Below, piece by piece: positions 19,232-30,806 of a stretch of 64,000 nt of DNA. Location: the NCBI RefSeq assembly GCF_004765785.1, contig NZ_SBIT01000002.1, forward strand, positions 248,001-312,000. The letters are read 5' to 3'. Each line of letters begins with the position of its first letter. The first letter of the stretch is position 1. The translations under genes and the position numbers were made by a program. Below the pieces are notes generated by a model. The model did no database searches. It saw only the letters and a program-made list of their open reading frames with translations, and was not told where the DNA came from. The DNA is from Halorussus ruber (GTDB taxonomy: Archaea; Halobacteriota; Halobacteria; Halobacteriales; Haladaptataceae).

Positions 19232-20671
19232 TTAGTTCTCGACTTCCGACTCGACGGCCATCTCCAGCCCGTTCACGAGCGCGGTCAGTTCCTCGTTCGA
19301 GGCCGTGATGGTCTCCATCCCGCTGGAGACCTCCGACATCTCGGTGGCGGCCTCGTCTATCATCGTCGCCACTTCTTCGGCGCTCTTGGCCTGCTGGTCG
19401 GTCGCGCCCGCGACTTCTTCGATGCCGTTCGAGACCTCTTCGATGGCCTCGCCGACCTCCTGAAGCGTCCCCATCGCGTCCTCGACGCGGTCGGTGCCGC
19501 GCTCGACGCGCTCGCTGGTCGTGTGCAGACTTTCGAGGGTGTCGTCGGTGTACTGCTGGATTTCGCCGATGGTGCCCTCGATTTCGTCGGCGTGGTTCTG
19601 GGTCTCCTCGGCCAGTTCCTTGACCTCCTCGGCGACGACCGCGAACCCGGACCCGGCCTCACCGGCGCGGGCGGCCTCGATGGAGGCGTTGAGCGCCAGC
19701 ACGTTGGTCTGGTCGGCGATGTCGTTGATGACCGCGACCACGTCGTCGATGCGCTCTACCTTCTCCTGGAGCGTCGCAAAGTCCGATTCGACGCTCGACC
19801 GGGCGTCCTCGACCCGGTGCATCTCCTCGATGGCCTCTTTCGAGTGGTCGATACCGTCTTCGGCGAGTTCCTCTGCCCGGTCGCTGACGGTGTTGACCTC
19901 CTCGGCGCTGGCCGCGATTTCCTCGGTGGTCGCGCTCAGGTCGGCGACCTCCTCGTTGAGGTCCCGAATCTTCTTCGACTGGGAGGCCGACAGCGCGTTG
20001 ATTTCGTCGGCGTTCTCGGCGATGTCGCCGGTCGCCATCTCGAGTTCTTCGACCGCTGGCTGGACCTCCTCGGTGAGCGTCTCGCGGAGCGACTCGGCCT
20101 CCTCGCGTGCTTCGCTCGCGGCGTCCTCCTCGTCGCCCGCCTCGTAGGCGTCGGCCGCGAGTTGTACGTCGCGGGTGGTCGCCCGAAACACGGCCTGCAT
20201 CCGGTCGGCAGTCTCTCGGACCGCCTGATTGACCGCCTCGTCGTCGCCGAACTCGGCGGACACCTGCGAGACGATTTCGGGGATGACGGCCTCGCGGAAG
20301 GCCGCGTACATCCCGACGTGGTCGGCCAGCGACACGTCCGCCATCCGGTGTAACTGCCCGCCGCGGACGCGGTCCCGGAGCAAGTCGTCGCCGTCGACGT
20401 CGTCCCGACCGAGTCTCGCCAACTGCTCTTTCTGGGCGCGCTTGAGTTCCTCGGCCGTGTACGAGTCGTCCGCGTCGAGTTCCGGACCGGAGATGTCCTC
20501 GTAGACCGATTCGACTGCGTCGTCGCTCGCGGCCTCGAAGTCGAGGCCCCGAAGGTGGTCCGCGTCGGACTCCGAGACGTCTGTGAGCGTAGACGGACGC
20601 TCGACTTCCGCGGGAACGAAGTCGCCTGCGAACTCCGGTTCGCCGTCCGTGGAGTTTTCGCTTCGTGACAT
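19232..20671 (-). CDS. Soluble globin-coupled (HemAT-like) chemotaxis transducer
   Basis: 479 residues without transmembrane helices. The N-terminal 130 residues resemble a shortened globin-coupled sensor: [20 protein letters not shown] then [25 protein letters not shown]. His108 aligns with the HemAT proximal heme ligand by pattern (family RIGxxH). The C-terminal 350 residues are a methyl-accepting signalling coiled coil with the conserved tip ([38 protein letters not shown]). ATG 20671 overlaps the stop of the upstream sensor gene (TAATG), giving translational coupling; the upstream extension to 20695 is rejected. Likely role: soluble aerotaxis or gas sensing that signals to CheA. Heme binding is not proven because the globin part is divergent. 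Confidence 0.8.
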
Positions 20672-21246
20672 TACCACGAGACTCGATAGATGCACTCGTC
20701 GCCGCCGTCGTCGCGGCAGGTCTCGCTCTCCTCTTCGACCTCGACGATCGCGCTATCGGGGCTGAACTTCTCGGCGACGGCCGTGATGAGGCCCACGTCG
20801 AGGTCACAGGGATACGGGTTCTTACAATAGACGAGACGCTCGTTGGGACCGGTCTCCTCGAACTCGTAGTAGCCGATTTCGCCGCCGCGGTGGTTCATCT
20901 GATACGCTTCCTCGATGGATTGGAGGCCCTTACCGACCGTGTCGATTCCGGGCGGCCACTCGGCGTTTTCCGGAATTTTCTTGCCGATATTCCGCAAGGT
21001 CTGGGGCCCAATCGTGTCGGCGACCGACTTGAACGAGTCGAGATACGCCTGCTGGGGATACCACTCGCCGGGCTGTGGCTCGCCGATACCCTTCTCGTCG
21101 AGCGTCTCTTGCATCCGTTTCTCGAAGACGCTAGAAAGTTCACCGACGCCCGCTAACATCGAGCGAACTGCCTGCCCATCGACTTCGACACCATCGTCGA
21201 ACGCTTCGAACTGCGTCATGTCAACATCTCCCTTTCCAGCCGACAT
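20671..21246 (-). CDS. Putative V4R/heme-NO-binding-like sensor protein
   Basis: 191 residues, soluble. The C-terminal half ([36 protein letters not shown] ... [15 protein letters not shown]) ends with a Cys-x(3)-GGD-x-C-x-Y-x-V-x-W pattern seen in small-molecule sensory domains of the V4R/HNOB type. The N-terminal half ([21 protein letters not shown] ... [24 protein letters not shown]) is helical, as in proteins that present such a domain. Two TATA-like A/T stretches lie 15-30 nt before ATG 21246 (leaderless). It is first in an operon with the HemAT-like transducer, so it may feed ligand information to it. The exact family is uncertain. Confidence 0.55.
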
Positions 21247-21607: not shown

Positions 21608-21751
21608 AGCAACGGTGATACACCGAGGTCCGGTAAGGAAACTTTGGCCTTTGCCTGTCACGATTGGGGCGGAGTCAGACGGCCCCTGAAGACATGGCGG
21701 AAATTGCGAAGACCCCGCGTACTTATGCCGGGTCCGGACAAGGATGGACAC

Positions 21752-22939
21752 ATGCGCGAGGACTTCCTCCTGCTGAACCCCGGACCAGTCCCGACGACCC
21801 GGGACGTGCGACAGGCGATGAGCGAACCGATGGTCTCGCATCGGTCGGCCGAGTTCGAGGCCGTCTACGAGCGTGCCCAAGACGCTCTCGACTACGTGTT
21901 CACCCAATCGACGCTCGACGGCGAGGAGACCGCGAGCGACGGCACCAGCCTCATCTTCAACGGGACCGCGACGATGGCGATGGAGGCCGCGGTGGCGAAT
22001 CTGGTCGGCGGTCTGAGCGGCCGCGAGAAAGACGGCAAGGTCGTCCCGCTGGTCAACGGCAAGTTCGGGCGGCGGTTCAAGCGAATCGCCGACCGGTACG
22101 CCTCGGTCGAGCCCGTCGAGGCCACGTGGGGCCAGTCCATCGACCTCGACGCCGTGGCCGAGACCGTGGACGACGACACCGACGTGGTGACGATGGTCCA
22201 CAACGAGACCTCCACGGGCCTATTGAACCCGGTCGAGGAGGTCGGCGAAATCGCCGCGGAACACGACGCCACCTTCGTCGTGGACGGCGTGACCTCCATC
22301 GGCGGCGACGAGTTCCGCATCGACGACTGGAACGTGGACGTGGCCGTGACCGACGCTCAGAAGTGTCTGGCCGCTCCTCCGGGGACCTCGGCGATGTACG
22401 CGACCGAGGCCGCCCAAGAGCGCTTCGACGGCGACGCCGCGCCCTTCTACGAGGACTTAGACTGGCACCTCCGGAAGGCCGACTCCCATCAGACGCCGTT
22501 CACCAGCGCGGTCCCGCTGTTCCGCGGCCTCGCGGTCGCCGTCGAGAACATCGTCGAGGAGGGCATGCCCGAGCGAATCGAGCGCCACCGCGAGCAGTCG
22601 ACGGCCTTCCGCGAGGCGTTCACCGCGATGGGCCTCGAACTGTTCGCCGAGCGCAACGAGGCCACCGAGTATTCGAACACCCTGACCGGCGTCTCGCTCC
22701 CGGCCCACACCCGCGAGAACCCCGAGGAGTTCTTCGACGCCGTGGAGGCCCGCGGCGTCTCCATCTCGGGCGGGCAGGCCCACCTCGGCGGCGAAATCTT
22801 CCGCGTGAGCAACATGGGCAACCTCTCCAGCGAGCAGATTCTGCGCGGCGTGCGGACGATTGGGGAGGCGTTCGAGGAGACCGGCGAGGACGTGGACACC
22901 GAGGCCGGAATCGAAGCGGCGCGTTCGGAACTTCGGTGA
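21752..22939 (+). CDS. Class V aminotransferase (alanine-glyoxylate/serine-pyruvate type)
   Basis: 395-residue PLP enzyme. Signature blocks: LLNPGPVPTTRDVRQAM, SHRSAEFEAVYERA, FNGTATMAMEAAVANL, HNETSTGLLNPVEEVG, VVDGVTSIGG (Asp178 pairing with the pyridine N) and TDAQKCLAAPPGTSAM with the Schiff-base Lys204. This arrangement is that of serine-pyruvate/alanine-glyoxylate aminotransferases, which interconvert serine, alanine, glyoxylate and pyruvate. ATG 21752 is chosen over ATG 21725 because the family starts with the LLNPGP strand. Divergent from the PRC-barrel gene. The exact substrate pair cannot be fixed by sequence alone. Confidence 0.9.
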   Translation: MREDFLLLNPGPVPTTRDVRQAMSEPMVSHRSAEFEAVYERAQDALDYVFTQSTLDGEETASDGTSLIFNGTATMAMEAAVANLVGGLSGREKDGKVVPLVNGKFGRRFKRIADRYASVEPVEATWGQSIDLDAVAETVDDDTDVVTMVHNETSTGLLNPVEEVGEIAAEHDATFVVDGVTSIGGDEFRIDDWNVDVAVTDAQKCLAAPPGTSAMYATEAAQERFDGDAAPFYEDLDWHLRKADSHQTPFTSAVPLFRGLAVAVENIVEEGMPERIERHREQSTAFREAFTAMGLELFAERNEATEYSNTLTGVSLPAHTRENPEEFFDAVEARGVSISGGQAHLGGEIFRVSNMGNLSSEQILRGVRTIGEAFEETGEDVDTEAGIEAARSELR

Positions 22940-23000: not shown

Positions 23001-23369
23001 ATGGCTCCAGAGCCGAGTACCGCCGAGGAGGTGTCGGAGACGCCGGACGGGATTCGAGAGTTGAAACTCGGCATCCTTCGAGAGTGGCTCAAAGTCGTCT
23101 ACGTCATTTCGACGTTCATCTCGCTAAACGTCATTCCGGGTCTTCTCTTCGCCACGGTCGTCGTTCTCGAAACAGTCGTGACGAACGTACCAAATCTAAC
23201 GCTACAACCATTAGCGATTCACGCGACGAGTAGCGAAGGAGTACCGGTGACAAAGCTTATAAAAAGTTTCGTCGTATTAGATGTCATACGTAATCTACTC
23301 AAACTCTACTGGAAAGGACAGCCGAATATCCAACTGAAACCCGACATTCCGGAGGCAAACGATGACTAA
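23001..23369 (+). CDS. Hypothetical membrane protein (122 aa), first of a coupled pair
   Basis: After a charged N-terminus a hydrophobic helix appears at about residues 33-58 (VVYVISTFISLNVIPGLLFATVVV), then a polar stretch, an amphipathic segment (VTKLIKSFVVLDVIRNLLKLYW) and an acidic tail. It overlaps the next gene by 8 nt (ATGACTAA), so the two are likely translationally coupled. Slightly lower GC than neighbours. No family recognised. Confidence 0.6.
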   Translation: MAPEPSTAEEVSETPDGIRELKLGILREWLKVVYVISTFISLNVIPGLLFATVVVLETVVTNVPNLTLQPLAIHATSSEGVPVTKLIKSFVVLDVIRNLLKLYWKGQPNIQLKPDIPEANDD

Positions 23370-23844
23370 ACACGACGTTTACTGGCCCGAGATGGGTATC
23401 GAGAACGACGAGGACACAGCCGGGTCAGAGGCCGTGAAAGAGTGGACTGAACACCCCACGCTCCGGAAAGTCCTGCTGACCATCTATCTCGGGACCGAAA
23501 TCATCCGAATCGCCGCGTTCGGTGCAATCGCGGGTGCGGTACTGGTCGGTGCGGTTCACCTCGGAATCGACTTCGATTCGAATACCGCGATACTCTGGGG
23601 ATTCATGGCGGCGGTGGCCTTCGTGATGGGCATAGACGAACTCTCGAAGAAAGTGGTGGACTACAGCATCCAGTACGGCGCATTTCTGGTGGCGACAGTC
23701 GTCGTGGTTTCGCTCCTCCAGTTGTATCTTGACCTCAAGGAGCGCCGGAACTCGATAGACGACCCCTCCGCGCTCGCGTCGTCGCTCCCCATCGAGAGCA
23801 TTCCGCTCCTCGAACTCTACGAGCGGCGTAATCGACTGATGTGA
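23362..23844 (+). CDS. Hypothetical membrane protein (160 aa), second of a coupled pair
   Basis: Three hydrophobic helices are visible (IAAFGAIAGAVLVGAVHLGI; ILWGFMAAVAFVMGI; FLVATVVVVSLLQLYLDL), flanked by an acidic N-terminus and a Leu-rich polar C-tail. Starts inside the last codons of the 122-aa membrane protein gene; probably both act together at the membrane. The downstream inverted-repeat element may terminate or cap the transcript. No known family. Confidence 0.6.
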   Translation: MTKHDVYWPEMGIENDEDTAGSEAVKEWTEHPTLRKVLLTIYLGTEIIRIAAFGAIAGAVLVGAVHLGIDFDSNTAILWGFMAAVAFVMGIDELSKKVVDYSIQYGAFLVATVVVVSLLQLYLDLKERRNSIDDPSALASSLPIESIPLLELYERRNRLM

Positions 23845-23942: not shown

Positions 23943-24028
23943 GACTCTCGGTACTTCTCGTGACGAGAAGCGGAAGTCCCCACTACAGACGCCGACTTTT
24001 TTCAAATCCCCCTTCGAAGCCGACACTC

Positions 24029-24202
24029 GTGCCCTCTGACGGCGCCTCCGACCTCGGTGCGAAACTCGACCGCATCAGCTACCTGCTGGTCGCGGTCGTG
24101 GTGCTTCAAATCGTGGAAATACTCGACCTCGACCCGACCGGTCTCGCGTTTCTCGCCGTGGTCGGGTTCTTCATCGGCATGCTCTACAACGCCGACCTGT
24201 AG
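24029..24202 (+). CDS. Small membrane protein (57 aa), related to two others nearby
   Basis: GTG 24029 opens a 57-residue frame: acidic head (SDGASDLGAKLDRISYLL) then two adjoining hydrophobic helices (LVAVVVLQIVEIL, GLAFLAVVGFFIGMLY). The LDRxxYLLVAxVVxQ block recurs in the small membrane proteins at 26705-26902 (as LDRIVLLLAALLAVEL) and 26903-27109 (LDRLTYLLVALVVFQL). Longer upstream frame contains the hairpin region and is not used. Function unknown; the related trio surrounds an MFS transporter and an S66 peptidase homologue. Confidence 0.5.
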   Translation: MPSDGASDLGAKLDRISYLLVAVVVLQIVEILDLDPTGLAFLAVVGFFIGMLYNADL

Positions 24203-24232
24203 CCGATTCCGGCAACGAGAAACCGCCCCAAC

Positions 24233-25456
24233 TCACCCGCTGAACACGCTCACACCCTCCGGATTGATTCGAAGGAAGGCCGGAATCGAGACCAGCGCGA
24301 TGGCGATTTCCAGCGCGCCCGCCGTCAGGAACGCCGCGAGGAAGCCGACCTCGTCGGCGACCGTCCCGCCGACGAGGACGCCAGCCAGAAAGCCCAGACT
24401 CCCGCAGGCGTTGAACCCGGCCATCGCGGTCCCGCGACCAGCGTCGGAGGCGAGGTCCGAGACCAGCGCCATCGTGGCCGGGGCCATCAGCGCGCCGATG
24501 ACGCCCACGACCACCATCCCGACCGCGGCGGTCGGAACCGTGGGCGAGACGCCGACGCCAACCACGGCGAAGCCGTAGAGCGCCGACCCGGCGACGATTG
24601 GGGCGGTCCGGCCGATGCGGTCCGAGAGGACGCCGAAGGGGTACTGAAGGAGCGCGAAGGGTCCGAAGAACAGACCCAGCATCAGGCCGGTCGCGGCGGC
24701 GTCGAGGTCGAACGCCTGCCGGAAGTAGACCGTGCCGACCAGCGCGAAGAATCCCGCGGTGAACCGGTCCACGAACCCGAAGACGTAGGGCAGGCCCAGC
24801 ACCGGGCGCTCGGCGAGCACGGCGAACGCGCGGCGGACTCGGCCCTCTCGACCTCCCTGTTCGCCATCCCGTCCGTCGCCCGAGGAGGGCGCGCGGTCGG
24901 GTATCGACACCGCCAGCGCCCCGGCGACGACCAGCAGGCCGCCCGCGGCGTAGAGCGGGACCAGTCCGCCGAATCCGTAGAGTCGCCCGCCGAGCGGTGC
25001 GCCGATGGCGGTCCCGAGGCCGATGGCGATGCCCGCCGCGCCCATGTTCTTGCCGTGGCCGCCCTCCAGGTCCATCAGCATCGTCATCGCCAGCGAGAAC
25101 GCCCCGATGGTGGTCGCGCCCTGCACCGCCCGGAGCGCCAGCACCCCGCCGAACGACAGCGAGAGCGCGCCGGGCGCGATTGCCAGCGCGAAATAGCCCA
25201 GCGCACCGCCGAACGCTCCAAGCACCACGAGCGGGGTCCGGTATCCGAGGCGGTCGCTGACCGCGCCCCAGACCCCGGCGAAGGCGACGAACGCGGCGAA
25301 CTCGGCGGCGAGGAACCACATGCTGGCGTCGAGCGTCGTGGTCGCGCCGACCGCGGCCACGAGGTCCGGCACGCCGGGATACAGGAGGACCTGCGCGAGG
25401 AGGACCGCGAACACGACGACCGCGAGTCGGAGTCGGTCGCATCGAATAGAGGTCAC
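24233..25456 (-). CDS. Major facilitator superfamily (MFS) transporter
   Basis: 407 residues with twelve predicted helices in two bundles. Typical MFS motifs: WGAVSDRLGYRTPLV between helices 2 and 3 (motif A, GxxSDRxGxR/K) and GVLSDRIGRTAPIV in the second half. A charged cytoplasmic loop (EQGGREGRVRRAF...) lies between the halves. The start is GTG 25456 (no ATG is available near the first helix). Resembles drug/metabolite:H+ antiporters; substrate unknown. Divergent from nothing close; convergent with the 57-aa membrane protein gene. Confidence 0.88.
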   Translation of the reverse strand: MTSIRCDRLRLAVVVFAVLLAQVLLYPGVPDLVAAVGATTTLDASMWFLAAEFAAFVAFAGVWGAVSDRLGYRTPLVVLGAFGGALGYFALAIAPGALSLSFGGVLALRAVQGATTIGAFSLAMTMLMDLEGGHGKNMGAAGIAIGLGTAIGAPLGGRLYGFGGLVPLYAAGGLLVVAGALAVSIPDRAPSSGDGRDGEQGGREGRVRRAFAVLAERPVLGLPYVFGFVDRFTAGFFALVGTVYFRQAFDLDAAATGLMLGLFFGPFALLQYPFGVLSDRIGRTAPIVAGSALYGFAVVGVGVSPTVPTAAVGMVVVGVIGALMAPATMALVSDLASDAGRGTAMAGFNACGSLGFLAGVLVGGTVADEVGFLAAFLTAGALEIAIALVSIPAFLRINPEGVSVFSG

Positions 25457-25507
25457 GGAAACGTTCGGAGATGGGGAGCGCGCCGTCTTATAAGCCGTGA
25501 TAGAACC

Positions 25508-26614
25508 TCAATCCTCGAACGTGATGGTTTCGCTGGCCGGGTCGATTTCCACGGTCCCACCGATGGGAATCGCCGCGATGGGGGCGGTGTGGCCGAACTC
25601 CACGTCGAAGACGACCGGCGCGTCGGGGTTGTACTCGCCGACGACCTCCGCGATGGCCTCGCGCTGGTTCTGTCGGTACTCGGCGCGGGCCTCCGGGCCG
25701 GGGTCCTCGAAGAGGTTGCGGGCCTTGGCCCGACCCACGAGGACGCCCGCGAACTGTTCCAGTAGGCCGCGCTCGCCCATCCCGATGAGGGACTGCCGGA
25801 CGTCCATCGCGGAGGGGAGTTCCTCGGAGGTCTCCAGCAGGAGGACCTTTCCGTCCAACTCCTCGGGGTCGGGAAGGTAGCGCCCGGTCCGGAGTTGCAT
25901 GTCCACGATTTCGAGGCACCCGCCCCACGTCCGGCCCGAGACGATCGTTTCCGGACCCCGCCACGTCCGGCCCGGATTGGGTTCCAGCTCGCGGTGTCGG
26001 TCCAAGTTGTCGGGGTCGGCCCAGTCGAGGTCCTCGTCGGTGAACTCCTCGGCGGGCCGAATCTCGCCGAACTCGCCGAGGTCGTCGGCGAAGAGGGCCG
26101 TTTCGAGGTACTCGACCGTGTAGTCGTGCATCGACCCCTGCATGGCGAAGTCGGTCAGGACGGTCCCGCCGTAGAACGAGGCGATGCCGAGGTTCCAGAG
26201 GTACAGTTGGAGGTTGGTGTTGTCGCTGATGCCGAAAAAGCGGGTCGGGTTCTCCCGCAGGACCTCGGGGTCGAGATGCTTCAGGATGCGGACTTGGTCG
26301 AACCCGCCGAGGACCGTCACGACGCCCGAAATCTCGGGGTCTTCGAAGGCGTCCATCACGTCTCGGGCGCGCTCCTCGGGGTGGTCGTAGAGGTACTCGA
26401 CGTCCTTCTGGGCGGTCGGGAACTCGACCGGTTCGAGGTCGAAGACCTCGCGCAGACGCTCCAGTCCGAGTTCGTAGACGTGAGGGTACTCGACAGCGCG
26501 GTTGGAACCGGGCGCGACGATTGCCACCTTGTCGCCCCGGTCCAGCGCGGGCGGGACGACGAACTCGCCGGCCGAGTCCGGGGCCTCGTCGGTGGATTCC
26601 GAAGACTCGTTCAT
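25508..26614 (-). CDS. S66-family (LD-carboxypeptidase/MccF-like) protein with altered nucleophile
   Basis: 368 residues with S66 fold landmarks: DKVAIVAPGSN start strand, ISGVVTVLGGFDQVRILKHLD, FFGISDNTNLQLYLWNLG, GGCLEIVDMQLRTGRYLP, and DVEFGHTAPIAAIPIGG. Triad residues Glu261 (LLLETSEE) and His342 (FGHTAP) are present, but the expected nucleophile Ser after GG-x-x is Gln107. Classical LdcA cleaves L,D peptides in peptidoglycan, which archaea lack; MccF relatives hydrolyse amide-linked antibiotics. A non-hydrolytic or altered role is possible. ATG 26614 is chosen; a longer frame overlaps the small membrane genes. Confidence 0.75.
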   Translation of the reverse strand: MNESSESTDEAPDSAGEFVVPPALDRGDKVAIVAPGSNRAVEYPHVYELGLERLREVFDLEPVEFPTAQKDVEYLYDHPEERARDVMDAFEDPEISGVVTVLGGFDQVRILKHLDPEVLRENPTRFFGISDNTNLQLYLWNLGIASFYGGTVLTDFAMQGSMHDYTVEYLETALFADDLGEFGEIRPAEEFTDEDLDWADPDNLDRHRELEPNPGRTWRGPETIVSGRTWGGCLEIVDMQLRTGRYLPDPEELDGKVLLLETSEELPSAMDVRQSLIGMGERGLLEQFAGVLVGRAKARNLFEDPGPEARAEYRQNQREAIAEVVGEYNPDAPVVFDVEFGHTAPIAAIPIGGTVEIDPASETITFED

Positions 26615-26704
26615 GGCCGGGGATTCGATGTCGGGTTTCGTATGGTTTTCGGAGGGGCGAGCCAATCCCACAGGTTGATGGCGGGCGGTTCCCAGCACTT
26701 CCGC

Positions 26705-26902
26705 ATGGCCGACCCCGAACTCCTCGCGCGCCTCGACAGAATCGTCCTCCTGCTCGCCGCCCTCCTCGCGGTCGAACTGCTGGAAGCGTTCGGGTGGGAC
26801 GCGACGGGGGTCGGATACGCGGTCATCGGCCTCGCAGTCGTCGGATTCGTCTTCCTCTGGGGGAAATCGGTCGTCGGACTCGTCGTCGGGGAGGAGCTTT
26901 AG
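26705..26902 (+). CDS. Small membrane protein (65 aa)
   Basis: Short acidic head (MADPELLARLDRIVLLL) followed by two hydrophobic helices (LLAALLAVELLEAF and YAVIGLAVVGFVFLW). Its stop codon TAG is directly followed by the ATG of the next gene, so the pair is cotranscribed. The LDR + long aliphatic block resembles the proteins at 24029 and 26903, pointing to gene duplication. Confidence 0.55.
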   Translation: MADPELLARLDRIVLLLAALLAVELLEAFGWDATGVGYAVIGLAVVGFVFLWGKSVVGLVVGEEL

Positions 26903-27109
26903 ATGACCGACCCGGACGATTTCGCAGACGAAATCGACCGTCTCGGCGACAAACTCGACCGCCTCACCTACCTGCTGGTGGCGCTGGTCGTCTTCCAACT
27001 GTTCGACCTCTTCGGCGGTGCGCTCGCTCAGTTCGCCGTCATCGCGGTCCTCGCGCTCGCCGCCGTCTCGGTCGTTGTCCTCCTACTCGGACTCGCCGAC
27101 GCGTTCTGA
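26903..27109 (+). CDS. Small membrane protein (68 aa)
   Basis: Starts at the base following the preceding gene's stop. Acidic head (DDFADEIDRLGDKLDRLTYLL) then two helices (VALVVFQLFDLF and AVIAVLALAAVSVVVLLLGLA). Residues LGDKLDRLTYLLVALVVFQLFDLF match LGAKLDRISYLLVAVVVLQIVEIL of the 57-aa protein at 24029 closely. The 3' end overlaps the convergent glycosidase gene by 27 nt. Confidence 0.6.
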   Translation: MTDPDDFADEIDRLGDKLDRLTYLLVALVVFQLFDLFGGALAQFAVIAVLALAAVSVVVLLLGLADAF

Positions 27110-28177
27110 CGCTCGGTCCGCTACCGGGGGAACCTGCCCCGTCGCGCTCGGCGTCCCGTCCTCGCCCACCACAGGCCACCCGTTCCGCCACCGAATCCGG
27201 TCGAGCATCAGGACTCTCCTCGGGGTGTCCTCGACCCACGGATTCGCTCTCTCGTAGGCGTGATAGAGCATCCACCACCCGCCGCGCTCGTCGCGGACCA
27301 CGGCGCAGTGGCCCGGCCCGGCGAATCGCTCGTCGCCCTCCAGAATCGTGGTCCCGGTCGCGTTCTCGGCGGTCAGACGCTCTCCGGCTCGGTTGCGGTA
27401 CGGCCCCCGGAGGCGCTCCGCTCGGCCGACGACGACGCGGTAGGTGCTTCGCGCTCCTCGACAGCAGGTGCCCCGCGAGCCGAACAGGTAGAAGTCGCCC
27501 TCGCGCTCCACGACGTAGGGTGCCTCGACGCCGTCGCCAGCGACTCGGAATTTCGCGTCCGGACCTCCGGCAATCGAGAGGCCGTCGTCTTCGAGCGGGA
27601 CGCCGTAGATGCCTCGGCGACTGCCCCAGAACAGGACGGGGCCGTTTTTCGCCTCGAACAGCACCGGGTCGATGGAGTTCGGCACGCCGATGTTGTCGGT
27701 TCGGAACAGGCCTCCTCGCGGTTCGAAGGGTCCGGTCGGGTCCGAGGCGGTCGCCACGCCGATGCCCTCGTTCGGCGCGCCAAATTCGGCGTCGGAGTAG
27801 TAGAGCAGGATTCGGTTCCCGAGTTTCCCGACGCCGGGTGCCCAGAGGCCGCGGTAACGCGACCAGTCCGGCATCTCGGCGAACGCGGGGCCGACGAACT
27901 CCCAGTCCACCAGATTCGGCGACCGCAGAATCGGAATCAGCTCTCGCTCGGGGCCGACCCCCGGTTTCCACGGATGGTAAGTGCCGTAGGCGTAGTAGGT
28001 GCCATCGACGCGAAGCACGTCGGGGTCGGGGAAGATGCGTTCGTAGACCGGGTTTCGGTAGGCGTCCTCCACGTGGTCGGGCACGTCCGAGCGCCCGCGA
28101 GCAGTTCTGCGCGCGAGGACAGGACCGAGAGCGAGCGCGCCTGCGCCGACGCCTGCGAGGAGTTCGCGCCGATTCAC
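27083..28177 (-). CDS. GH43-like secreted glycoside hydrolase
   Basis: 364 residues. The N-terminus MNRRELLAGVGAGALALGP is a twin-arginine-style signal. The mature part is a five-bladed beta-propeller of the GH43 type: catalytic acids Asp53 (FPDPDVL, general base), Asp170 (NSIDPVLF, pKa modulator) and Glu218 (GVEAPYVV, general acid) are all present, as are the family blocks ILRSPNLVDWEFVG, GLWAPGV and GHCAVVRDERGGWWMLYH. Substrates of the family are arabinans, xylans or galactans; not resolvable here. The last 27 nt overlap a convergent small gene. Confidence 0.85.
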   Translation of the reverse strand: MNRRELLAGVGAGALALGPVLARRTARGRSDVPDHVEDAYRNPVYERIFPDPDVLRVDGTYYAYGTYHPWKPGVGPERELIPILRSPNLVDWEFVGPAFAEMPDWSRYRGLWAPGVGKLGNRILLYYSDAEFGAPNEGIGVATASDPTGPFEPRGGLFRTDNIGVPNSIDPVLFEAKNGPVLFWGSRRGIYGVPLEDDGLSIAGGPDAKFRVAGDGVEAPYVVEREGDFYLFGSRGTCCRGARSTYRVVVGRAERLRGPYRNRAGERLTAENATGTTILEGDERFAGPGHCAVVRDERGGWWMLYHAYERANPWVEDTPRRVLMLDRIRWRNGWPVVGEDGTPSATGQVPPVADRASERVGESE

Positions 28178-28278: not shown

Positions 28279-29583
28279 ATGACCGACGAGGACGCCCAGC
28301 GGCGCTTCGCCACCCGGAGCCTCCACGCGGGCCACGGGGCCGACCCCGCGACGGGGGCGCGAGCGCCGCCCATCTACCAGACGACCTCCTACGAGTTCGA
28401 GGACGCCGACCACGCCGCGGACCTCTACGCGCTCGACGCCGAGGGTGACATCTACTCGCGCATCTCCAACCCGACGGCTCGCGCGCTCGAGGAGCGACTC
28501 TCCTCGCTGGAAGGGGGCGAGGGAGCGGTCGCCACCGCCAGCGGGATGGCCGCGTTCGACTCGCTGGTGTTCGTGCTGGCCGAGTCGGGCGACAACGTGG
28601 TCTGCTCGACCGACACCTACGGCGGGACCACCGCCCACCTCCGGCACAACGCCAGCAAGCGCGGCGTCGAACCGCGATTCGTGGACACGCTCGACTACGA
28701 GGCCTACGAGGAGGCCGTGGACGAATCGACCGCGTTCGTCCACGTCGAGACGGTGGGCAACCCCTCGCTGGTGACGCCGAACTTCGAGCGGGTGGCCGAA
28801 ATCGCCCACGACGCCGGGGCACCCCTCGTGGTGGACAACACCTTCGCCACCCCCGCGCTCTGTCGGCCCCTCGAACACGGCGCGGACGCGGTCTGGGAGT
28901 CCACGACGAAGTGGCTCCACGGGAGCGGAACCACGGTCGGCGGAGTCGTGGTAGACGGCGGAAGTTTCGACTGGGAGGAACACGCCGAGGAGTATCCCGA
29001 ACTCGCGGGCCAGAACCCGGCCTACCACGACACCGACTTCTCGCGGGACTTCCCCGAGGCTCCGCTCGCCGCCGCGGTCCGGTGGCGGGCGCTCCGGAGT
29101 CTGGGCAACCAGCAGTCGCCATTCGACGCGTGGCAGACGCTGCAGGGCTTGGAGTCGTTCCCCCTGCGGATGGACCGCCACAGCGAGAACGCCGCAATCG
29201 TCGCGGAGTACCTCGCCGACCACGACGAGGTCGCGTGGGTCGCCTACCCCGGTCTGGAGAGCCACGAGACCCACGAGAACGCGAGTCGGTATCTTGAGGG
29301 CGGATACGGCGGGATGATTGCCTTCGGCCTCGAATCGGGATTCGAGGCCGGAAAGGCGTTCTGCGAGAACGTCGAGTTGGCGAGCTTTCTGGCGAACATC
29401 GGCGACGCCAAGACGCTGGTCATCCACCCCGCCAGCACGACCCACGCCCAACTCTCGCCCGAGGAGCAGGAGTCCGCGGGGGTCTCGCCCGACCTGATTC
29501 GCCTCTCGGTCGGCATCGAAGACCCCGCGGACCTGCTGGCGGACGTAGAGCAGGCCATCGAGGCGGCCACTTCCACATCATGA
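28279..29583 (+). CDS. metY: O-acetylhomoserine sulfhydrylase (aminocarboxypropyltransferase)
   Basis: 434-residue PLP enzyme of the Cys/Met metabolism family. Blocks [72 protein letters not shown] and [16 protein letters not shown] (Schiff-base Lys211) identify the MetY branch, which makes homocysteine from O-acetylhomoserine and sulfide. AT-rich promoter and start ATG are clear; a TATA-like stretch TTATAACTCC lies 28-30 nt upstream. It overlaps metX by 4 nt (ATGA), so both steps of the sulfhydrylation route are cotranscribed. Confidence 0.95.
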
Positions 29584-30806
29584 ACCGGACGCGAGACGTT
29601 GCCGACCTCGGGGAGTTCGAGTTCGAGTGCGGCCGGTCGGTCCCGCTCGAAGTCGCCTACGAGACCTACGGCGAGTACGACGGCAACAACGCGGTGCTGG
29701 CCTGTCACGCCCTGACCGGGAGCCAGCACGTGACCGGACCGAGGCGCGGGAGCGACGACGAAAACGGCACGAGCGGACAGGCCTCGGCGTGGTGGAGCGA
29801 CGTGGTCGGGCCGGGCAAGGCTATCGACACCCGCGAGTACTTCGTCGTCTGCGCGAACGTGCCGGGGTCGTGCTACGGGACGACCGGCCCGGCCAGCATC
29901 GACCCGGAGACCGGCGACCCCTACGGCACCGACTTCCCGCCGGTCACGGTCGGCGACTGGACCCGAGCGCAGGCCCGACTGCTGGACCTCCTCGGGGTCG
30001 GTCCGCTCCGCGCCGTCGTCGGCGGGAGCGTCGGCGGGATGAACGTCTTGGAGTGGGCCAAGCGATTCCCCGAGCGCGTGGACCGAATCGTGCCGGTCGC
30101 CACCGCGGCCCGCCTCGACCCGCAGATGCTCGGTATCGACGCCGTGGCCCGGCGGGCCATCACGACCGACCCGAACTGGAACGGCGGGGAGTACTACGGC
30201 ACCGACGAGGAGGGCGACCCCCGGCCCGAACCGAACGAGGGCCTCGCGGTGGCCCGCCAGTTGGGCCACCTCAGCTACCTCTCGAAGGACTCGATGGACC
30301 GGAAGTTCGGCCGCCGGTCGGCGGGCCGGGCCGGAACCGCCGAGGCGTTCGCTCCGGACGACCCCGCGGGGGAGTTCTTCCCCTACCGCGAGGTCGAATC
30401 CTACCTCGACTATCAGGCCGAGAAGTTCGTGGAACGCTTCGACGCCAACAGCTACCTCTACCTGACCAGAGCGATGGACGACTACGACCTCGCGGAGGGC
30501 TACGACTCGGACGCCGACGCGCTCGCCGGGTTCTCGGGCGAGGCCCTCGTGGTCAGTTTCACCGGGGACTGGCACTTCACGGTCGAGCAGTCCGAGCGCC
30601 TCACCGCCGCCTTCGAGACGGCGGGCGTGGACACCGCCCACCACGTCGTCGAGAGCGACCACGGCCACGACGCCTTCCTCGTGGAACCCGAGGAGGTCGG
30701 GCCCCCGATTCGGGACTTCCTGTCGGCGGGTCTGGACGGGAAGGCCGTGAGCGACGCCGAGGAGCGAGAGTTCGCGCCGGTTCACGCGAGTCTGTTCGGT
30801 GACTGA
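29580..30806 (+). CDS. metX: Homoserine O-acetyltransferase
   Basis: 408-residue alpha/beta hydrolase that transfers acetyl from acetyl-CoA to homoserine, giving the substrate for MetY. Features: [11 protein letters not shown] oxyanion segment, nucleophile Ser150 in [38 protein letters not shown] lid, and the catalytic His in [10 protein letters not shown] near the end. Length is normal for MetXA-type enzymes. The C-terminal 20 residues are an acidic haloarchaeal tail. Confidence 0.95.

Follow-up and report, generated by a model that had tools for sequence, protein, structure and literature searches.

Annotating and detecting small membrane proteins is difficult. Here we describe three short genes, P1, P2 and P3, on a 64,000-nucleotide stretch of DNA from Halorussus ruber, genus Halorussus, family Haladaptataceae (assembly GCF_004765785.1, contig NZ_SBIT01000002.1, positions 248,001 to 312,000; this whole stretch is referred to as the window). 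Three described systems come closest to their products. DUF7310 (PF23991), a coiled-coil region, resembles the charged, heptad-like stretch of the long P3 proteins encoded at two related loci, L056 (E = 1.1e-4) and L057 (E = 0.0015). These two matches score 23 and 19 bits, below the cut-off of 40, and span the coiled coil, mostly outside the transmembrane (TM) hairpin, and P1, P2 and P3 of the window are not matched. DUF3040 (PF11239) has a similar layout by profile position, a charged helix followed by a hydrophobic stretch, but its best match (L057, E = 0.0062) scores 17 bits against a cut-off of 24.7, and P3 scores 11.5 bits. The two-TM segment of HtrII, a haloarchaeal transducer (PDB 4gyc, 5jjn and 2f93) is similar in length to the hairpin in the P2 model, with target-normalised TM-scores of 0.53–0.57, but the likeness is not significant (Foldseek E = 4.8–7.8, 17–18% identity) and any helical hairpin could match.

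No match to the small proteins above a curated cut-off (PHROGs have none) was found in Pfam, NCBIfam or PHROG, no solved structure was matched by sequence at E ≤ 1, and Foldseek with the P2 model against the PDB returned nothing at E ≤ 0.001. The titles and abstract openings covered by literature searches name the family nowhere, and none concerns Halorussus together with small proteins. By sequence, this is a small membrane protein family that is uncatalogued in the libraries searched. The three genes are:

24029..24202, plus strand, P1: 57 aa, GTG start, two-TM protein, slot A
26705..26902, plus strand, P2: 65 aa, two-TM protein, slot B1
26903..27109, plus strand, P3: 68 aa, two-TM protein, slot B2

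Homology and distribution of the small proteins

A first-pass annotation of the window had proposed three related small proteins of 57, 65 and 68 residues at 24029, 26705 and 26903, the last two abutting. Its coordinates and lengths are exact, and the TAG stop of P2 directly abuts the ATG start of P3 with zero bases between them. The LDR...YLLVA...Q block that it assigned to all three proteins is literally present in P1 (LDRISYLLVAVVVLQ) and P3 (LDRLTYLLVALVVFQ), whereas P2 carries only a diverged form (LDRIVLLLAALLAVE). Pairwise BLASTP gave E-values of 5e-9 for P1/P3, 1e-5 for P2/P3 and 2e-4 for P1/P2. A six-frame search of the 4.3-Mb H. ruber genome with P3 as the query returned four matches at E ≤ 10, namely P3 itself, P1 (4e-4), a match on contig C4 within a 956-aa frame (0.013) and P2 (0.095). 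The likeness among the three proteins exceeds composition because hydropathy-preserving shuffles rarely, and control stretches never, match their scores. Class-preserving shuffles, which keep the hydrophobic/hydrophilic pattern of the sequence, reached the observed score in 0 of 2000 trials for P1/P3, 5 of 2000 for P2/P3 and 0 of 2000 for P1/P2, and none of 193 unrelated, hairpin-like 65-aa stretches from the window reached the observed scores. P1, P2 and P3 are, by these sequence measures, homologues and paralogues of one family. The duplication proposed in the first-pass annotation is thus borne out, and the likeness is also shared by orthologues at the same locus in Halorussus.

Of 18 Halorussus genomes, 14 are hit by the family profile (A2). 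The 27 matches at E < 1e-8 all map to the locus by their coordinates, and the copy number there ranges from zero to three per genome. The profile did not find the family in G007, G009, G011 or G016. A contig scan with the P2 alignment found three loci only. Slot A (P1) is occupied in six genomes (G000, which is the window genome, G002, G003, G004, G014 and G015), slot B1 (P2) in ten (G000, G001, G003, G004, G006, G008, G010, G012, G014 and G015) and slot B2 (P3) in ten (G000, G002, G004, G005, G008, G010, G012, G013, G014 and G015); G017 has one member that is not assigned to a slot. The P2 alignment (A3) holds nine orthologues including that of the window, with the start-less copy of G001 (locus L051) counted beside them, and the P3 alignment (A4) holds ten members. 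Slot A and slot B1 form clades in the tree (support 95/97 and 100/99, respectively). Slot B2 is a grade that also holds two sister-genus rows, and support is weak on 13 of 26 inner branches. Given the slot clades, the duplications seem to predate most of the species and to have been followed by losses.

The order of genes at the locus is class-V aminotransferase, P1, MFS, S66, P2, P3, GH43, CGS and MetX, with MFS, S66 and GH43 on the minus strand. This order is repeated across Halorussus, and GH43 or single members are missing in places. The neighbours of the small genes in the window are:

21749..22939, plus strand, class-V aminotransferase (AGT) at the other border of the locus; Pfam Aminotran_5, 1.9e-23; syntenic
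24233..25456, minus strand, MFS transporter between P1 and S66; Pfam MFS_1, 1.1e-38
25508..26614, minus strand, S66 peptidase homologue divergent from P2; Pfam S66, 5e-26, and S66C, 1.8e-21
27083..28177, minus strand, GH43-family protein that overlaps P3 by 27 bp in convergent orientation; Pfam Glyco_hydro_43, 9e-53
28279..29583, plus strand, CGS, a Cys/Met-metabolism pyridoxal phosphate enzyme; Pfam Cys_Met_Meta_PP, 4e-126
29580..30806, plus strand, alpha/beta hydrolase after CGS, which we take to be MetX-like; Pfam Abhydrolase_1, 2e-17

Small two-TM open reading frames (ORFs) also lie upstream of CGS, on the CGS strand, in the sister-genus genomes G018 (75 aa), G019, G023, G025, G026 and G027. 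The G026 ORF is 46 aa long and is separated from CGS by GH43, as in Halorussus. The mean score of each of these six proteins against 26 Halorussus members exceeds that of 298–300 of 300 shuffles. When the best single score is used, the observed value is reached by 0 of 300 shuffles for G027, 2 for G018, 3 for G023, 12 for G025, 16 for G019 and 41 for G026, and the last three are therefore weak by this measure. Position, strand and sequence similarity together mark the sister-genus ORFs as diverged relatives of P1–P3. No family member was seen upstream of CGS in G021, G022 or G024. A member or a remnant is present upstream of CGS or at the locus in 21 of the 28 Haladaptataceae genomes searched, and none was seen in the 1.5 kb that precede CGS in 20 genomes belonging to other families. 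One of these, G093, has a two-TM ORF of another kind before CGS on the sense strand; none of the 20 has one on the antisense strand. The family thus appears limited in these searches to one haloarchaeal family and one locus. Weak order-wide matches outside Haladaptataceae (G241, G289 and G356) were rejected for weak sequence and the lack of common neighbours, as was a match on contig C6 of G026, where the 46-aa ORF by GH43 and CGS is the real candidate.

Comparison of orthologues by the ratio of nonsynonymous to synonymous differences (pN/pS, uncorrected for saturation) gave 0.09, 0.10, 0.17, 0.18 and 0.19 for the five P2 pairs that are closest; the values for the closest pair are 0.39 in P3 and 0.30 in P1. 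Most of the close P2 pairs have the bulk of their substitutions at codon position 3 (for example 3, 1 and 15 at the three positions). This bias is missing in the P2 pair L054/L061 (7, 1 and 7) and is less clear in P1 and P3. The P2 C-terminus reads LWG[RK]S, in which LWG is invariant and is followed by R or K and then S. Seven genomes have both P2 and P3; the spacing between the two genes is −4 to +3 nt in six of them and 41 nt in G012. That orthologues keep to their slots and that pN/pS is low between close relatives supports the view that P1–P3 are real genes. The close pairs are under purifying selection, in what would be a fast-evolving family. A 16-residue insertion follows MADPEL in the P2 orthologues of G004 (L054 8412-8648), G014 (L060 8678-8920) and G015 (L061 9551-9784).

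Predicted architecture and role of the hairpins

Each of the 29 proteins examined contains two hydrophobic stretches, joined by a loop of mostly 4–12 residues that in most cases is acidic or bears no charge. The acidic N-terminus closes with K/R-L-D-R immediately ahead of helix 1. Counting from the R of the final LDR, helix 1 has Glu or Gln at R+12 in 25 of 26 proteins and at R+13 in the remaining one (L054 8412-8648); the count was made by eye for L056, L057 and one row each of L052 and L060. At L056, L057 and L060 the N-terminus of P3 is extended, charged and heptad-like, resembling a coiled coil. The AlphaFold2 model of P2 is a hairpin with helices at residues 4–29 and 35–61 (mean predicted local distance difference test score (pLDDT) 80, predicted TM-score (pTM) 0.57). 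The P2 and P3 models are silent on oligomers. Judged by these features, the proteins could be two-helix membrane hairpins in the N-in orientation, with both ends in the cytoplasm, although P3 is modelled as a single helix.

Our best guess, to which we assign a probability of roughly 0.4, is that P1–P3 are self-associating membrane accessory hairpins whose partner is tied to CGS–MetX or lies elsewhere. Each paralogue would form a two-helix hairpin in which a cytoplasmic N-terminus and helix 1 are followed by the loop and helix 2. Self- or mutual assembly would be mediated by the N-terminal stretch, which would extend into a coiled coil in some P3 proteins, and by the Glu/Gln buried in helix 1; P2 and P3 would be co-produced from a single, coupled transcript. 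Such an assembly may act as a small membrane accessory, either an anchor or a regulator, and its partner is more likely to be linked to CGS–MetX, encoded on the same strand of the locus, or to be encoded elsewhere than to be the S66 or MFS protein. It is possible, as the first-pass annotation suggested, that the proteins regulate a membrane complex or help to assemble one.

Several observations weigh against this assignment. The AlphaFold2 model of P3 is one long helix rather than a hairpin (mean pLDDT 85, pTM 0.36), and the family is dispensable because four of 18 Halorussus genomes have no member. The G001 homologue of P2 at L051 has no in-frame ATG and lies at the S66 locus, with the CGS gene of G001 on another contig; since GH43 also intervenes in some species, an operon with CGS is not universal. 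Decay is seen in the sister genera, where G025 has one intact and one frameshifted copy, the G026 ORF is short, and the copy of G020, judged by eye only, is decayed and has lost any normal start codon. The median pN/pS over all pairs is 0.57 for P2 (n = 36), 0.76 for P3 (n = 45) and 0.76 for P1 (n = 15), which points either to loose constraint on P1 and P3 or to saturation of the pairs. Both the partner and the activity of the small proteins are predictions.

The genomes without the family, the decayed or short copies and median ratios of up to 0.76 would also be expected of lineage-specific genes of little fitness value that turn over in a variable locus, their hydrophobic products being tolerated in the membrane. 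We regard this explanation as rather unlikely because the close P2 pairs are strongly constrained (pN/pS 0.09–0.19), the P2 C-terminus is conserved, and the slot persists across genera. The small size, hydrophobicity, local duplication and zero to three copies per species would also suit toxin-like or membrane-permeabilising proteins of the type I toxin or holin kind, for which tandem copies in variable number would fit. One member has a weak match to the PADLOC '2TM effector' (E = 0.0014) and one to XhlA (E = 0.17), but the family matches all fall below the cut-off. A toxin-like function is unlikely. With tblastn, neither phage records queried with P2 nor plasmid records queried with P3 gave a match, and toxins that are quickly swapped would not resemble these orthologues, which keep to their slots under purifying selection.

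A more specific version of the accessory-hairpin proposal is a long shot. The paralogues, confined to one chromosomal slot next to the methionine genes, would form hetero-oligomers through the intramembrane Glu/Gln and the cytoplasmic coiled coil, and at the haloarchaeal membrane they would anchor or tune an enzyme or transporter of sulfur amino acids. We know of no such membrane-hairpin control described for archaeal methionine synthesis. The comparative record is clean: a single locus has three slots, genes were gained and lost there across 18 species, and sister genera have decayed copies. The locus is therefore a compact test case for how tiny archaeal membrane genes arise, duplicate and get lost. 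A partner, if found, would give a role to proteins absent from the family libraries searched.

Neighbouring genes and candidate partners

The S66 and MFS identities given in the first-pass annotation are correct by Pfam. Its suggestion that the small proteins act with one of these neighbours, as dedicated accessory or regulatory subunits of the MFS transporter or the S66 peptidase, is favoured by an adjacency that is conserved within Halorussus: S66 is at the locus in 17 of 17 genomes compared and the MFS gene in 16 of 17 (the exception is G001) and also in G017, P2 is divergent from S66, and P1 adjoins the 3′ end of the MFS gene. Other observations speak against it. The S66 gene of G003 (H. 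litoreus, L053 9235-9690) has an in-frame deletion of ~214 residues, over half of the protein, in which residues 58–271 including GISDNT are gone, and G003 keeps P1 and P2 intact. G001 keeps its P2 homologue with no MFS gene at the locus. Conversely, G007, G009, G011 and G016 have S66 and MFS without the small proteins, and the sister-genus relatives adjoin CGS without the S66–MFS pair. Strict co-occurrence of the small proteins with S66 or MFS was not found, and these comparisons argue against S66 or MFS as a dedicated partner. We consider such a tie unlikely; the G003 case only lowers its likelihood, because the deletion could be recent or an assembly fault.

Microcin C clusters employ an MFS exporter and an S66 peptidase, and the pair at this locus recalls them. 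It is highly improbable that MFS, S66 and the small peptides form a comparable export and self-immunity set, because P1–P3 are hydrophobic hairpins and not heptapeptide precursors, and S66 occurs in three other haloarchaeal genomes (L067–L069) without this MFS gene adjoining. No MccB-type gene is among the scanned locus genes, although no profile search aimed at MccB was made.

The steadiest neighbour of the small genes across genera is CGS. The small genes are co-directional with CGS in 13 of 13 Halorussus genomes that have both on one stretch (the window, L052–L062 and L103). This link rests on position only, since there are Halorussus genomes with CGS and without a small gene. The GH43 gene between P3 and CGS comes and goes, being absent in some relatives and a remnant in G005, and it is found at the corresponding place in G022 and G026.

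Upstream elements and other features

Alignment of upstream regions gave three blocks in the window:

23995..24006, plus strand, T-rich box ~29 nt before the P1 start, common to 6 of 6 P1 loci
26637..26652, minus strand, TAT..TT.CG block between S66 and P2, from the alignment of 12 loci
26670..26678, plus strand, ACA-N2-TTGA-like block that ends 26 nt before the P2 ATG, present with variation in 11 of 12 loci, at ~26 nt from whichever small gene comes first in slot B

The T-rich box is a possible promoter of a leaderless P1 transcript and the ACA-N2-TTGA-like block a possible promoter element for P2–P3. The TAT..TT.CG block is placed suitably for a leaderless S66 promoter and may serve as one. 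An AT-rich inverted repeat with arms of ~25 bases lies just before P1 (23868-23942) and folds as single-stranded DNA with a z of −7.3. It was ruled out as a mobile element, a second copy not being found in the genome.

Two overlapping ORFs of 122 aa (23001-23369) and 160 aa (23362-23844) lie between the aminotransferase and P1, and the 160-aa product has hydrophobic stretches. Neither has a Pfam match, and among 22 compared stretches a counterpart is present only in G012. Further upstream, positions 19232-20695 of the minus strand encode an aerotaxis-transducer-like protein with a protoglobin domain and a methyl-accepting signalling domain.

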